Shown in pieces: positions 27,846 through 33,602 of a stretch of DNA of 33,602 bases; position 1 is the first letter of the stretch, and every line of letters starts with the position of its first letter. A program made the position numbers and the translations under genes. Under the pieces are notes generated by a model. That model searched no databases. It was not told the DNA's origin and was given only the letters and a program-made list of their open reading frames with translations. The stretch covers positions 1-33,602 of the forward strand of contig JAGGUL010000068.1 of the NCBI GenBank assembly GCA_021158525.1, read 5' to 3'. The DNA is from Candidatus Hydrothermota bacterium (GTDB lineage: Bacteria; Hydrothermota; Hydrothermia; B15-G9; DRBW01).

Positions 27846-28916
27846 TCAGCTCAGCTTTTCCCGCATGGCCCTGTCTATAGCCGACCAGAAGGGGTCTATG
27901 CGGGGATGCTCCAGCTTCTCCCTGCCACCGCCGCCCTCCAGCCAGAATCCTTCCTCTTTTCTGAGAATCACTCCTACTTCTCTGGCAAGAATTCCGCTGT
28001 CCTCCAGCCTGGCAATCAGCTCGCCCTTCTTATTCGGCCTGACCGTGATTATGAGGGTACCCTCGCTGATGGAAATAAGGGGATCCATTCCGAAAAGCCC
28101 GCAGATCTTCTTCACGGCCTCGTCGACAGGAATCTCATCCCTGTAAATGAGCACGCCCGTTCCCGATGCCTGAGCCACTTCATAGATCCCGCCGATAACT
28201 CCACATTCGGTGGCATCGTGAAGGGAGGTAACGCCTTTTTCCCTGACGCCGACCTTCACGGCGGTAAGGGCGTCGTCCACCGTCGACATCCTGTAAAAAA
28301 GGTCCTGTCCTCTCCTCAAGATCTCCTCGCCCAGTTCCCTCTCTATTGTCGACGGGAAGAGGTGGGAAAAGATCCCGGTGGCCTCTATGGCGGCCCCCTT
28401 CGTGATCACTATGACATCGCCCGGGGAGGCCATCTCCGGCGTGAGATATTCGGCCTCAGGTCCTATGGCCATGAAGGTCGCTCCTCCCACCATGGGATAA
28501 TCGGTGCCCGTGTACCTGGCCGTGTGTCCGGCCACCACGGCGGTACCGTATTTCTCCGATTCCCTGTGTATGACATCCCAGACTATCTCGAACTCCTCCT
28601 CCTTTATTCCCATCGGGAGGTTGAAATCGAAGACGGCGTGGGAGGGCGGGAACCCGCTGGTGGTAACGTCGGATGCCAGGATGTGCCAGGCGAACCAGGC
28701 AGCCTTCTCCCAGCCATACTGGGGAACTATATAAATGGGATCTGTCGTCACTGCCATCACCAGTCCGGAGCCTATTTTCACTATGCCCACATCAACCCCG
28801 TGCCTCGGCCCCACGAGGACATCATCCCTCCTGGCGCCGAGCTTTCGATAGATATACCTGTCAAAAAACTCGGGCGAAATCTTTCCGATCTCCGGGAAAC
28901 CCACTTTCTCTCTCAT
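27846..28916 (-). CDS. PurM/HypE/ThiL-superfamily ATP-binding protein at the end of the thiamine operon
   Basis: 356 residues of the AIR synthase-related (PurM) superfamily. The N-terminal domain has VGPRHGVDVGIVKIGSGLVM, TTDPIYIVP and HILASDVTTSGFPPSHAVF, with the acidic D-x-T-S-G segment that binds metal-ATP. The C-terminal domain has GDVIVITKGAAIEATGI, TSLHDATECGVIGGIYE and a late EGTLIITV. HypE's C-terminal PRIC cysteine tail is absent. The closest named relatives by pattern are HypE-like AIR synthase proteins. Because it ends a TPP-regulated operon with ThiD and ThiE but no ThiL, I infer that it may phosphorylate thiamine monophosphate. The ATG overlaps the thiE stop (ATGA). Confidence 0.8.
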   Translation of the reverse strand: MREKVGFPEIGKISPEFFDRYIYRKLGARRDDVLVGPRHGVDVGIVKIGSGLVMAVTTDPIYIVPQYGWEKAAWFAWHILASDVTTSGFPPSHAVFDFNLPMGIKEEEFEIVWDVIHRESEKYGTAVVAGHTARYTGTDYPMVGGATFMAIGPEAEYLTPEMASPGDVIVITKGAAIEATGIFSHLFPSTIERELGEEILRRGQDLFYRMSTVDDALTAVKVGVREKGVTSLHDATECGVIGGIYEVAQASGTGVLIYRDEIPVDEAVKKICGLFGMDPLISISEGTLIITVRPNKKGELIARLEDSGILAREVGVILRKEEGFWLEGGGGREKLEHPRIDPFWSAIDRAMREKLS

Positions 28917-29560
28917 CTCGCACCTCCCGTGTATCTGGATATTACGGATTTGAGCTCGCGGGCTGCTCTCTCGGGATCGTCGGCGCCGAAGACCGCCGAC
29001 ACCACAGCCACGGCGTCAACCCCTGCCTTCAGGACTTCTTCCGCGTTCTCCCTGTTGATCCCCCCTATCGCCACAACAGGTATCCTCAGCTTCTCCCTGG
29101 CTTCTCTCAGGATATCGAGGGATCCCATGAGGGGGGCATCCTCCTTGGTGGGGGTGGGGAAAACGGCCCCGAAAGCCACGTAATCGGCCCCTCTCCTCTC
29201 CAGATCGAGGGCCTCCTCTATCCCGCCATAGCAGGAAACCCCTATGATGGCGTGTCTCCCCAGAATCCTCCTCGCCTCCTCCAGGCTCACGTCTCCCCTG
29301 CCTATGTGCACTCCGTCGGCCCCGGAGCGAAGAGCCACCTCGGGGAAATCGTTGACGATAAAGGGAATGCCGTATTCCCGCGTCAGGTCCCTCAACCTCC
29401 TCGCGAGGGAGATCTGTTCCTCTATGGGAGTATCCTTCTCCCTCAGCTGAAGCACGTCGGCGCCGCCCTTAAGGGCCTTCTCCACCGTCTCGAAAAACCT
29501 GTCCCTCGGGATCAGCTTCTTATCGGTGATAACGTAAAGCCCTCTAATTCTCGGTTTCAT
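28913..29560 (-). CDS. thiE: Thiamine-phosphate synthase
   Basis: 215 residues. It joins HMP-diphosphate and hydroxyethylthiazole phosphate to thiamine monophosphate. TIM-barrel motifs are GLYVITDKKLIPRDRF, ADVLQLREKDT, PFIVNDFPEVALRSGADGVH (adenine/pyrophosphate site), IIGVSCYGG, DYVAFGAVFPTPTKED and VVAIGGINREN. The start is ATG 29560 (MKPRIRG), with GGAG about seven bases upstream. A longer frame from 29611 lies mostly inside thiD and adds residues unlike the family. It overlaps thiD by 17 bases. Confidence 0.95.
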   Translation of the reverse strand: MKPRIRGLYVITDKKLIPRDRFFETVEKALKGGADVLQLREKDTPIEEQISLARRLRDLTREYGIPFIVNDFPEVALRSGADGVHIGRGDVSLEEARRILGRHAIIGVSCYGGIEEALDLERRGADYVAFGAVFPTPTKEDAPLMGSLDILREAREKLRIPVVAIGGINRENAEEVLKAGVDAVAVVSAVFGADDPERAARELKSVISRYTGGAR

Positions 29561-30356
29561 CCCTGATCTCCAGGTTGTGAAAGTGATTGAGGGGCCCGTG
29601 ACCCTTTCCAAGGTCGAAGCTGTTCCTTATAGCACCCGTTATATAATTCTTGGCGCTCCGGACGGCGCTCAAGATGTCCTTTCCGAGAGCGAGGTTGGCG
29701 GCTATCGCCGCCGAATAGGTACAGCCCGTGCCGTGGGTGTTCCTTGTCTCGAACCTCGGCGATGAAAAGAAGCAAAATTCACCGTCGGCGTAAAAGAAGT
29801 CCACGGCCTCATCTCCCTGAAGGTGTCCTCCCTTGACGAGGACAAACTGAGGTCCCAGGGAGTTTATTGCCCTGGCGGCCTCCTCCACGTCGTCGAGAGA
29901 CCTGATCTCGATCCCCGAGAGTCTTTCAGCTTCGGGGATGTTTGGAGTCAGAACCAGTGCCAGAGGGAGTATCTCCTCCTTCAGGGCATCCACCGCCTCC
30001 GGAGCAAGAAGGGGATCCCCAGACTTGGCCACCATGACCGGATCGACGACCAGAGCCTCAATCCCGAAGTCCCTCACTCCCCTGGCGACCGCCTCTATTA
30101 TGCCGGCGTTCGAGAGCATGCCCGTTTTCGCGGCATCTGCTCCGATGTCCTCCATCACCGCCTTTATCTGAAGGTAAACGAAGTCGGGATCGAGATCGTG
30201 AATGCCGAGAACGCCTACGGTATTCTGCGCCGTCACCGAAGTGAGGACCGACATCCCGAATACCTTAAAAGCCGTGAAGGTCTTGAGATCGGCCTGTATT
30301 CCGGCTCCTCCTCCCGAATCAGAGCCGGCTATGGTCAACGCTCTCCTCACTTTCAT
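29544..30356 (-). CDS. thiD: Hydroxymethylpyrimidine/phosphomethylpyrimidine kinase
   Basis: 270 residues, ribokinase fold. Motifs are [79 protein letters not shown] and the anion hole/catalytic base [19 protein letters not shown]. It phosphorylates HMP twice to HMP-diphosphate, the ThiE substrate. ATG 30356 is chosen over GTG 30362, since GAGG (overlapping the thiY stop) is seven bases from the ATG. The length is that of the single-domain form, not fused to ThiE or TenA. Confidence 0.96.
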
Positions 30357-30365
30357 TTTCACGCC

Positions 30366-31304
30366 TCAGGGTATGGTGTAAAGATCTCTCGGCTCAACTT
30401 CCCTTGAGATCAGACCCCATTTCATGGCGAACTCGGCGAATTCCTTCCACCTCGCTGGATCCTGAGCCGTAACCTCGGCGTACAGAGGGAGAGTGTCGTG
30501 AAAGGCCTTCCTGTCGAGGTCCTTCCTGACATCGGGGTTGGCGCTGAAGTAGAGGTCAAGAGCCTCTTCCGGCTTTTCCCTGACGAATCGAAGGGCTCTG
30601 TCAATGGCCCTGAGGAACGACGAGAGCAGCCTCTTCTTCTCCGCTATTTTCCCGTCGCTGGCGATGAAAACGAGCTCATAGTAGTCGGGGAGTCCGTACT
30701 TCTCGAGGGGGAAAAAGGATGCCCTCTTGCCCTCGAGTTCGATCTCGTTCTTCTCATAATTCCTGTAAGCGCCTATGACTGCGTCGACCTTTCCCGAGAG
30801 AAGGGATGGGGTGAGGTTAAAACCCACGTGTATGAGGTCGACCTTCGCCGTGTCCACTCCGTTTTTCTCGCAGAAAGCCCTGAAGAGTATATCCATCATG
30901 TGCGGCACGGAGTAGCCGACTTTCCTGCCCTCGAGGTCCTTCGGCTCCTTTATGCCCGAATCTTCCAGGTAGAGAATCGTAGTGAGGGGGTGTGCCACGA
31001 GGACCCCGATGCTCTTCACCGGCAAACCTTCCGAGCGGGCGATCACGACCTGGGGCATGTAGCTAACTCCTATATCCGCCTTTCCGCTCGCCACGAGCTT
31101 CTGCGCATCAGAGGGATCGGAGGGAATGACGATCTTCAGGTCGATCCCCTCATCGGCGAAGAATCCCTTCTCCTTCGCCACGTAAATCGGCACATGGTCG
31201 GCATTGGGAAACCAGTCGAGAACGAGGGTAAGCTGATTTTTGGGTTTGCCCGCACAGCCCGACAACGTCAGCGCTGCGAGGCCGAGGAGAAACAATTTCT
31301 TCAT
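30366..31304 (-). CDS. thiY: ThiY-like substrate-binding lipoprotein (NMT1/THI5 family)
   Basis: 312 residues. The signal peptide ends in a lipobox LSGC, giving predicted lipidated Cys17. The mature part has [67 protein letters not shown] (read in short parts) and [11 protein letters not shown], all typical of NMT1/THI5-like proteins. ThiY binds pyrimidine precursors of thiamine (formylaminopyrimidine in Bacillus). ATG 31304 has GGGAGG upstream; it overlaps the thiX stop (ATGA). Ligand identity is inferred from the riboswitch and neighbours. Confidence 0.9.
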
Positions 31305-32068
31305 CCCTTTTCCTCCCATTTTCTATCCCTCCTTTTCCAGGGAAGGAGTGCCCTTTCCAAAAGTTCAACTCCGTAAAAAAGGGCGAGCCCTATAGCCGAC
31401 AGAATCAAAATAGAGGCGAAAATCAGGGAGATCCGGAGCTGGGCATTGGCGTGCAGCATAAGGTAACCGAGGCCCTCCTCGGAGCCGACCCATTCGCCGA
31501 TCACAGCGCCTATCGTGGAGACAGAGACACCTATCTTGAGGCCGGCAAAGAGGAAGGGAAGGGCCCAGGGAAACCTTATCTTCCACAGGATCTGCCACTT
31601 CGTTGCTCCGGCCACCCACAGTAAATCCACCAGGTCCCTGTCGGCATCCCTTATTCCCTGCAGAAGGTTCAGGGTAATCGGAAAGAACACTATGAGGGCC
31701 GCCATCAGGACCTTTGACAGGATGCTATAGCCGAACCAGTAAACGAAGAGGGGTGCGAGGGCAAAGACGGGGATGGCCTGAGAAGCTATGAGGAGCGGAT
31801 AAAAAGCCCTCTCGAGGGATTTCCTGAAAAACATGACGAGTGCCAGGGGAAAGGCCAGGGCGAGGGCGAGGATTATCCCGAGCAGTATCTCCTCGAGGGT
31901 CACCAGGGTGTGCCTGAGGAGAAGCGAAAAGTTAACCGCGAAGGTCTGAAATATGCCGCTTGGAGGAGGGAGGATGTAAGAGGGAACCTCGAAGAGCCTG
32001 ACCAGAAACTCCCAGACCGCGATAAGCGCAAGTAATATGAAAACGGGATAGAAGTTCCTACGATCCAT
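31301..32068 (-). CDS. thiX: ABC transporter permease of the thiamine-precursor system
   Basis: 255 residues, about six transmembrane helices, BPD-type permease. The EAA loop is readable around DLLWVAGATKWQILWKIRFP, and IPVFALAPLFVYWFGYS and the C-terminal GLGYLMLHANAQL are typical of the SsuC/ThiX group. It forms the membrane channel with ThiZ and ThiY. It overlaps thiZ by 11 bases and thiY by four, so the three subunits are made together. Confidence 0.92.
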   Translation of the reverse strand: MDRRNFYPVFILLALIAVWEFLVRLFEVPSYILPPPSGIFQTFAVNFSLLLRHTLVTLEEILLGIILALALAFPLALVMFFRKSLERAFYPLLIASQAIPVFALAPLFVYWFGYSILSKVLMAALIVFFPITLNLLQGIRDADRDLVDLLWVAGATKWQILWKIRFPWALPFLFAGLKIGVSVSTIGAVIGEWVGSEEGLGYLMLHANAQLRISLIFASILILSAIGLALFYGVELLERALLPWKRRDRKWEEKG

Positions 32069-32804
32069 TCTGAACCTCCTCCAGGAGCTCGTCGAGAATT
32101 TCCTCTTTCAGCTCGAGAAAGCGCCTGTCAGCTATGGACCTGGGCTTCTCCATCTCCACCTTGATCACTCTCCTGACCCTCGCCGGCAGCGCCGAAAAAA
32201 CGTAGATCCTGTCGGAAAGCAAAAGGGCCTCCTCCACATCGTGGGTGATCATCAGGACCGATTTGCCGAACCTATCCGACAGGGCCAAGAGATAAGACTG
32301 CAGTTTCCTCCTGGTAATCGCATCGAGAGCGGAAAGCGGCTCATCCAGAAGAAGGAGGTCCTTCCCGAACATCAGCGTCCTTGCGAGCGCTGCCCTCTGT
32401 CTCATCCCTCCCGAAAGCTGCGAGGGATACATGTCGGAAAAGCTATCGAGCCTGAAAAAGGAAAGAAGCTCCTTCGCACGCGTGAGAGTCTCTCCGTTGA
32501 GCTCGCCCTGAATTTCCGGTCCGATGAGGACGTTTCCCATAAGGGTCCTCCAGGGAAGGAGGAGGTCCCTCTGCTGCATATAGGCCACGAGCCCCCTCAG
32601 GTTTTCCACCCCCCTGCCCTCGTAAACTATCTCGCCGCCATCGTAGGTCGCAAGCCCTATGAGAACGTTGAAAAAAGTCGTCTTTCCACAGCCCGAAGGG
32701 CCGACAACTGTCACGAACTCCCCTTCGTCGAGCTGGACGCTCACCCCGTCCAGCACCAGAAGGCCGTTCATCTCCTTTCTTATGTCACGCGCGATAAGTT
32801 TCAT
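32058..32804 (-). CDS. thiZ: ABC transporter ATPase of the thiamine-precursor system
   Basis: 248 residues. Walker A is GPSGCGKT (~35-42), the Q-loop is near YMQQRDLLLPWRT, signature LSGGM is at 131-135 followed by RQRAALARTL, and Walker B is LLLLDEP (~151-157). The H-loop is in LMITHDVEEALLLSDRI. The NitT/TauT-type subclass fits ThiZ/SsuB. The ATG at 32804 overlaps the methyltransferase stop (ATGA). The assignment to thiamine precursors rests on the TPP riboswitch and neighbours. Confidence 0.93.
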   Translation of the reverse strand: MKLIARDIRKEMNGLLVLDGVSVQLDEGEFVTVVGPSGCGKTTFFNVLIGLATYDGGEIVYEGRGVENLRGLVAYMQQRDLLLPWRTLMGNVLIGPEIQGELNGETLTRAKELLSFFRLDSFSDMYPSQLSGGMRQRAALARTLMFGKDLLLLDEPLSALDAITRRKLQSYLLALSDRFGKSVLMITHDVEEALLLSDRIYVFSALPARVRRVIKVEMEKPRSIADRRFLELKEEILDELLEEVQNGS

Positions 32805-33463
32805 TTTCCCTTGATCGTCAGGAAAAGGAGAAGGGCTCCTCTATCCTTGCAAAGAAGCTTACCCAGGGGCTCGATCAGGCCGGAGAAACGGCTCCAGATC
32901 TCGACCGGCGGAAAGAAAACGGCCGAAGTCCACACAGTCCTGCCCCGCGATCTCAGTTCCGGGAGAAGCTCTCTCAGTTCAAAATAGTGGGCTTTCTCGT
33001 AGATCGTCCCCGGCTTTTTCTTCCTGGCCCAGGAGCTCCTTCTGTTCAGAACTCCGAGAAGCACTCCCCCACCCTCTTTTGTCACCCTGAACATCTCGTC
33101 GATGGCTACCCCCGGGTCATCGAGAAACTCAAACACCGTTATCGAGTAAACCAGGTCAAAAATTCCGTCTTTGAAGGGTAGCTTCAGGGCATCTCCCCTC
33201 ACGAGCCCGAGGAGATCATCGCCGCACCTCTCCCCGGCGACCTTCAGCATACCCCCGGACAGATCCAGTCCGACGAGGTCGAACTTCTGAGCCAGCAGAC
33301 AGCCGAAATGGCCGGTCCCTATGCCAACCTCGAGAGCATACCCGTCCCCGAAATCTCCGAGCAGAGACAGGAGAGCCTTCCTCTCGGCCCTGTCCGCCCT
33401 TTCCCCGAGAGGAGTCTCGAACCAGGATTCATACCTGTATGCGATTTCGTCCCATATATTCAT
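32801..33463 (-). CDS. Class I SAM-dependent methyltransferase, first gene of the TPP-regulated operon
   Basis: 220 residues. Motif I ALEVGIGTGHF is at ~43-53, the acidic ribose-binding residue is in LVGLDLSGGM, and a post-motif region reads DALKLPFKDGIFDLVYSITVFEFLDDP. This is the Methyltransf_11 (UbiE-like) fold. The substrate is not evident. It is the first gene after the TPP riboswitch and overlaps thiZ by four bases, so it is made with the uptake system. ATG 33463 is preferred; its only ribosome-binding candidate is GGGAAA, which can be masked by the leader hairpin. An in-frame TTG at 33481 is less likely. Confidence 0.87.
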   Translation of the reverse strand: MNIWDEIAYRYESWFETPLGERADRAERKALLSLLGDFGDGYALEVGIGTGHFGCLLAQKFDLVGLDLSGGMLKVAGERCGDDLLGLVRGDALKLPFKDGIFDLVYSITVFEFLDDPGVAIDEMFRVTKEGGGVLLGVLNRRSSWARKKKPGTIYEKAHYFELRELLPELRSRGRTVWTSAVFFPPVEIWSRFSGLIEPLGKLLCKDRGALLLFLTIKGK

Positions 33464-33490
33464 TTTCCCACAATCGGGCAACTGGGGAAA
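33464..33490 (-). promoter_or_regulatory. Candidate SD-sequestering hairpin of the riboswitch expression platform
   Basis: On the minus strand, UUUCCC (33490-33485) can pair with GGGAAA (33469-33464), the sequence just before the methyltransferase ATG. The same CCCC is part of CCCCAG (33487-33482), which can instead pair with CUGGGG (33593-33588) in the 5' strand of the aptamer. This suggests translational control. It is inferred by eye. Confidence 0.45.
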
Positions 33491-33506
33491 GCTGCGGAAG
33501 GAAGTC

Positions 33507-33596
33507 GCGCTTCCCTACGCCGGCATTACCCGGATCAGGTTCCAGGGGTCGGCCACGAGGCCCTCTCAGCCGGGATTTACCCAGCTCCCCCAGCGC
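33507..33596 (-). promoter_or_regulatory. TPP riboswitch (THI element)
   Basis: Reading the minus strand, the conserved THI-box blocks occur in order: GGGGGAGC, GGCTGAGAGGG, GACCCCTGGAACCTGATC, CGGGTAATGCCGGCGTAGGG, then AAGCGC. P1 is formed by GCGCT (33596-33592) with AGCGC (33511-33507). The P3 arm is the short GGCCTCGTGGCC hairpin. TPP binding should switch off the downstream methyltransferase-thiZXY-thiD-thiE-PurM-like operon. The promoter lies beyond the window end. Confidence 0.97.
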
Positions 33597-33602
33597 CTCA
33601 TC

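Follow-up and report, generated by a model that had tools for sequence, protein, structure and literature searches.

A methyltransferase at the head of a TPP-riboswitch operon is probably a previously undescribed part of vitamin B1 salvage in Candidatus Hydrothermota

Why is a methyltransferase the first gene of a thiamine operon that is controlled by a TPP riboswitch? We know of no standard thiamine step that requires a class I methyltransferase. The first-pass annotation of this locus had made the same point and had proposed a role in salvage, a role connected with an antivitamin, or a fortuitous passenger; its candidate substrates were HMP, formylaminopyrimidine, a thiazole fragment and an antivitamin. 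The window, which is the whole stretch of 33,602 nucleotides that was analysed, contains the following features.

33495 to 33601, minus strand: TPP riboswitch aptamer (RF00059; cmscan 81.5 bits, E 7.7e-15, full model)
32801 to 33463, minus strand: class I SAM-dependent methyltransferase (MT), 220 aa, first gene of the operon (Methyltransf_11)
32058 to 32804, minus strand: thiZ-like ABC ATPase (Pfam ABC_tran, 97 bits)
31301 to 32068, minus strand: thiX-like ABC permease (Pfam BPD_transp_1, 110.7 bits)
30366 to 31319, minus strand: thiY-like NMT1/THI5 substrate-binding lipoprotein (Pfam NMT1, 251 bits)
29544 to 30362, minus strand: thiD, HMP/HMP-P kinase (TIGR00097, 370.7 bits, cut-off 204.95)
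28913 to 29560, minus strand: thiE, thiamine phosphate synthase (TIGR00693, 222.5 bits, cut-off 145.1), start placed at the ATG at 29560
27846 to 28916, minus strand: AIR-synthase-related protein (ThiL/HypE-like), last gene of the operon (Pfam AIRS_C, 69 bits)

The riboswitch match at the end of the window covers model positions 1-105 completely, and its score of 81.5 bits compares with a gathering threshold of 54.3. A complete aptamer therefore lies directly upstream of the operon, and the start codon of the MT follows 31 nt downstream of it. Since the aptamer reaches the edge of the contig, the junction was checked in the WOR-3 hydrothermal-vent MAG HyVt-237 (G021), a congener and the only other genome of the genus that was examined. 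There, an aptamer of 107 bases, letter-identical to that of the window and with sequence upstream of it, is followed by the same order of MT, thiZ, thiX and thiY. In the window the genes run in the order MT-thiZ-thiX-thiY-thiD-thiE-AIRS and overlap or sit a few nt apart; the junction read from the sequence shows that the stop codon of the MT and the start codon of thiZ overlap in ATGA. The first-pass annotation was right to join the MT to ThiZXY as the first gene under the riboswitch, but it had drawn the operon too short, omitting thiD, thiE and the AIRS-like gene. With the NMT1 and ABC genes, and with ThiD and ThiE above their curated cut-offs, the genes downstream of the riboswitch are genes of thiamine uptake and synthesis. 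When TPP is scarce, the riboswitch would permit the joint production of the MT, ThiZXY, ThiD, ThiE and the AIRS-like protein. Between riboswitch and MT, the leader (33440-33500, minus strand) can fold into a hairpin in which UUUCCC pairs with a GGGAAA that immediately precedes the start codon, which makes it a possible translation switch. For the predicted hairpin over GGGAAAAUG, folding was not above that of shuffled sequence (z 0.12), and the terminator and promoter predictions were not above chance level.

The MT matches Pfam Methyltransf_11 with 75.9 bits (cut-off 21.2) and has the glycine-rich SAM motif E45-G47-G49-T50-G51 of the Rossmann-fold class I enzymes. Its AlphaFold model has a pLDDT of 94.8, and the best fold matches are methyltransferases, the closest solved folds being 2gs9 (TT1324) and 1vlm (TM1293) with a TM of about 0.8. 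Judged by motif and predicted fold, the protein is a class I SAM methyltransferase. The first-pass name "UbiE-type" applies to the fold only: UbiE/MenG methyltransferases have the class I Rossmann fold in common with the MT, but the MT scores far under their curated cut-offs (NCBIfam UbiE/MenG 49.8 bits versus 327, TIGR01934 47.8 versus 158.35). When the curated families UbiE, BioC, ArsM, CpaM and DVU1556 were tried, the window MT remained far under every cut-off; the same families match other MT members weakly. The MTs of the window and of the congener are 84% identical. Between them dN/dS is 0.12 for the MT, 0.10 for ThiZ and 0.05 for ThiX. The MT is under purifying selection and, with a value close to that of ThiZ, is not a decaying gene.

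The MT could nevertheless be a generic methyltransferase that came under the riboswitch by chance, as a passenger, in a single WOR-3 genus. The sister families (G022, G023, G025) and family f11 (G054) have TPP-ThiZ-ThiX-ThiY without the MT, so the MT is not essential to the transporter. Among 34 TPP-bearing WOR-3 genomes, no MT was found under another TPP riboswitch outside the genus, and the genus is represented by two genomes only, that of the window (G000) and G021. From the WOR-3 data alone, in which the MT stands under a TPP riboswitch in one genus only, a passenger would be a fair reading. Two further observations were made in this phylum. In families f2 and f6 a TPP riboswitch governs a TonB-dependent receptor (L060:558-3110, L070:574-2676) that presumably imports thiamine or a precursor. 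In families f30 and f37, more distant, generic TM1293-like methyltransferases have a Thiamine_BP gene at a distance of about 1 kb or less (L194:5907-6869, L195, L196).

The Chloroflexota speak against the passenger reading. In 400 genomes of this phylum, two strong MT matches were found inside ThiXYZ operons. At L214 the order is TPP riboswitch, TPK, MT, YkoF, ThiX, ThiY, ThiZ; at L209 it is a TPK-YkoF fusion, ThiX, ThiY, MT, ThiZ. The fusion (L209:2810-3778) joins a thiamine pyrophosphokinase to a Thiamine_BP domain. Every TPP riboswitch in the order to which L214's genome belongs was then listed, and 14 of its 15 genomes have one. The MT was present at eight of the 14 loci. Six of these eight have the block TPP-TPK-MT-YkoF/Thiamine_BP-ThiXYZ, or as much of it as the contig holds, with the YkoF match at L233 just under the Pfam cut-off; at the other two (L236, L241) the contig ends after TPK-MT. 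At L234 and L235, TPK runs straight into ThiX and leaves no room for the MT or YkoF, and the remaining four loci have other ABC genes or a contig end. Since the MT and YkoF are missing together at L234 and L235, the two genes are gained or lost as a unit. Outside its genus, the window MT is best matched by the MT of L232, with 43% identity over 215 aa, in a TPP-TPK-MT-YkoF-ThiX-ThiY-ThiZ operon of the Chloroflexota, where the MT stop and the YkoF start overlap in ATGA as the MT and thiZ do in the window.

The partnership with YkoF extends beyond this phylum. A scan of the genome collection with the MT, picking loci by sequence alone, returned the congener and four loci with 35-36% identity in the best segment; the detailed searches covered about 1,200 genomes. 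The four come from two Desulfobacula species, one WOR-3 of family f12 and one Dehalococcoidia, and in each of these top loci outside the genus a Thiamine_BP/YkoF-family gene directly adjoins the MT. In the Desulfobacteria the profile scores split into 14 matches of at least 172 bits and a tail below 147. When the high scorers of the Desulfobacteria and Chloroflexota searches, selected by sequence, were taken as the subfamily, a Thiamine_BP gene was present within the 1.5-kb flanks at 10 of 22 loci versus 0 of 44 loci of generic methyltransferases (Fisher p=3e-6, or 3e-5 after the cluster of related Desulfobacteria was collapsed). Many of the Desulfobacteria members (L154-L162) stand away from any thiamine gene, and no TPP riboswitch was found near the Desulfobacteria members. 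In Desulfobacula and relatives (L096:5613-10606, L098:5605-10816, L181, L182) the genes after the Thiamine_BP-MT pair encode an FAD-linked oxidase, which is conserved, and a cysteine-rich Fe-S protein (a GlcD/GlcF-like pair), and there are no thi genes in the vicinity.

According to the first-pass annotation, the absence of a recurring thiamine link among homologues would have pointed to chance. The check on homologues shows a link to thiamine that recurs in a second phylum, in TPP-ThiXYZ operons of the Chloroflexota, and as MT-YkoF/Thiamine_BP pairs in several lineages. This recurrence and the purifying selection leave the passenger with hardly any credibility, while the salvage part of the first-pass proposal gains support.

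The gene orders differ between lineages (MT-Z-X-Y; TPK-MT-YkoF-X-Y-Z; X-Y-MT-Z), and the window ThiX and ThiY are 56-59% identical to those of the TPP operons of WOR-3 sisters that lack the MT. This suggests that the MT joined B1-uptake operons independently and more than once. On the MT tree, parsimony counts five changes of the thiamine-linked state. The deep branches of the tree are below support thresholds; the subfamily is thus not supported as one orthologous clade, and we do not claim such a clade across phyla. What can be proposed is a ThiXYZ-associated MT group: in phyla unrelated to one another, its homologues are repeatedly found next to ThiXYZ, YkoF/Thiamine_BP or TPK. Within the thiamine-linked set E112 is found in 19 of 19 sequences and N140 in 16 of 19, whereas the generic TM1293/TT1324-like homologues examined are without the 'EF' and 'LN' positions of this set.

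ThiC and TPK are absent from G000 and G021, so the organism must import the pyrimidine and process it via ThiD, ThiE and ThiL. A canonical ThiL is encoded elsewhere in G000 (C35), and the AIRS-like gene of the operon is therefore not needed to explain TMP phosphorylation; its product is under the thiL cut-off (63.9 versus 184.15). In G054 and G055, homologues that are 69-71% identical follow a TPP riboswitch directly, together with ThiE. This gene (27846-28916, minus strand) is another TPP-regulated gene without an assigned function. The Chloroflexota operons, in turn, carry TPK. Since ThiXYZ uptake is common to both routes, the substrate of the MT is most simply imported material.

Since relatives of the MT recur in similar B1-uptake operons of an unrelated phylum, the MT is probably no stray gene but a real component of B1 salvage that has not been described before, and that it functionally belongs to B1 uptake or salvage we regard as very probable. 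The molecule that it methylates is most likely a vitamer, a breakdown product or an analogue of B1 that enters through ThiXYZ. We infer the identity of the substrate, a B1-family molecule, and the purpose, which would be repair and salvage or detoxification. In the proposed mechanism, ThiXYZ would bring in a B1 vitamer and the MT would use SAM to methylate the incoming molecule, which may be an unusual or damaged pyrimidine or thiamine form, or an analogue. Methylation would render the molecule usable or disarm it. YkoF/Thiamine_BP, the immediate partner of the MT in many relatives, would bind the vitamer. That the MT is a genuine member of a TPP-riboswitch salvage operon and methylates a B1-family molecule imported by ThiXYZ seems to us fairly likely. 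For the substrate taken by itself, a B1-family molecule is somewhat favoured, and any single reaction, taken one at a time, is at best unlikely. The chances are about even for a fuller scheme, an undescribed salvage step in which a TPP-controlled MT and a YkoF-type binder act on a methylatable vitamer brought in by ThiXYZ, converting or disarming it, and which came together separately in WOR-3 and in Chloroflexota.

Alternatively, the MT could act on a protein, quinone, thiol or metalloid whose level has to keep step with the TPP status, the adjacency to YkoF and ThiXYZ reflecting shared regulation only. The weak profile likeness to UbiE, ArsM and BioC would fit a substrate of this kind, as would the several homologues that lie beside unrelated genes, namely a polyamine-type ABC transporter, a nitrilase and a FAD-linked oxidase. 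In one Desulfobacteria genome (L184:2434-7045) an MT homologue closes the operon of such a polyamine-type transporter; for some members the substrate may thus be a different imported compound. However, the window MT reaches none of the curated cut-offs for UbiE, ArsM and BioC, the recurring partners are specifically proteins that bind, take up or phosphorylate B1, and the MT and YkoF are absent together. We consider a substrate outside the B1 family unlikely.

B1 metabolism is regarded as well mapped, and B1 auxotrophy, with growth on precursors and breakdown products, is common among environmental bacteria. The link of a conserved, TPP-regulated methyltransferase to the uptake machinery would imply a B1 vitamer, a damage product or an antivitamin outside the existing pathways. 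For finding that molecule, the MT, YkoF as its partner and the transporter provide a small, concrete set of genes. The MT step is also common to ThiXYZ operons whose downstream routes differ, being ThiD/ThiE/ThiL in one case and TPK in the other.

Among the known systems, the nearest solved structures TM1293 (1vlm) and TT1324 (2gs9) are also the nearest by profile, with 185 and 194 bits; they are methyltransferases without assigned function and about 29% identical to the MT. The commonest immediate neighbour of the MT outside the genus of the window is YkoF/MTH1187 (Thiamine_BP, PF07615/PF01910; for example Thermotoga TM0486), and the window genome has its own member on another contig (C33), outside the operon. 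In the non-subscription literature we found no description of thiamine methylation or of an association of the MT with YkoF or ThiXYZ; priority for the link between the MT and thiamine is not proven.

The bacimethrin/thiaminase I operon of Paenibacillus and Clostridium botulinum likewise combines a SAM methyltransferase with a TPP riboswitch, thiD and thiE (PMC5627462). This route is the one known case in which a TPP riboswitch controls a SAM methyltransferase, and the first-pass annotation had overlooked it. By analogy with the methyltransferase of that operon, which in Paenibacillus stands with thiM-thiD-thiE under the riboswitch (PMC5627462), the MT could produce a methylated antimetabolite of thiamine. 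However, the annotated operon genes of the window, L214, L209 and L231-L239 include no thymidylate-synthase-like protein, nucleoside deoxyribosyltransferase or thiaminase I. Instead of these hallmark genes the operons have ThiXYZ, accompanied in the Chloroflexota by TPK and YkoF, and with such neighbours of the MT the biosynthesis of an antivitamin is very unlikely.

The operon also resembles the ThiXYZ (NMT1/THI5-type) salvage operons under TPP control, which have the same importer genes with an NMT1-family ThiY, the TPP riboswitch and thiD/thiE. ThiXYZ and ThiY have been linked to HMP and to base-degraded thiamine (PMC5627462). A large survey of riboswitch regulons tallies orthologues for biosynthesis and transport and names no methyltransferase in the main text (PMC3766115). 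The regulons described there are made up of biosynthesis and transport genes (PMC3766115); the operons compared here repeatedly include a SAM methyltransferase as well.
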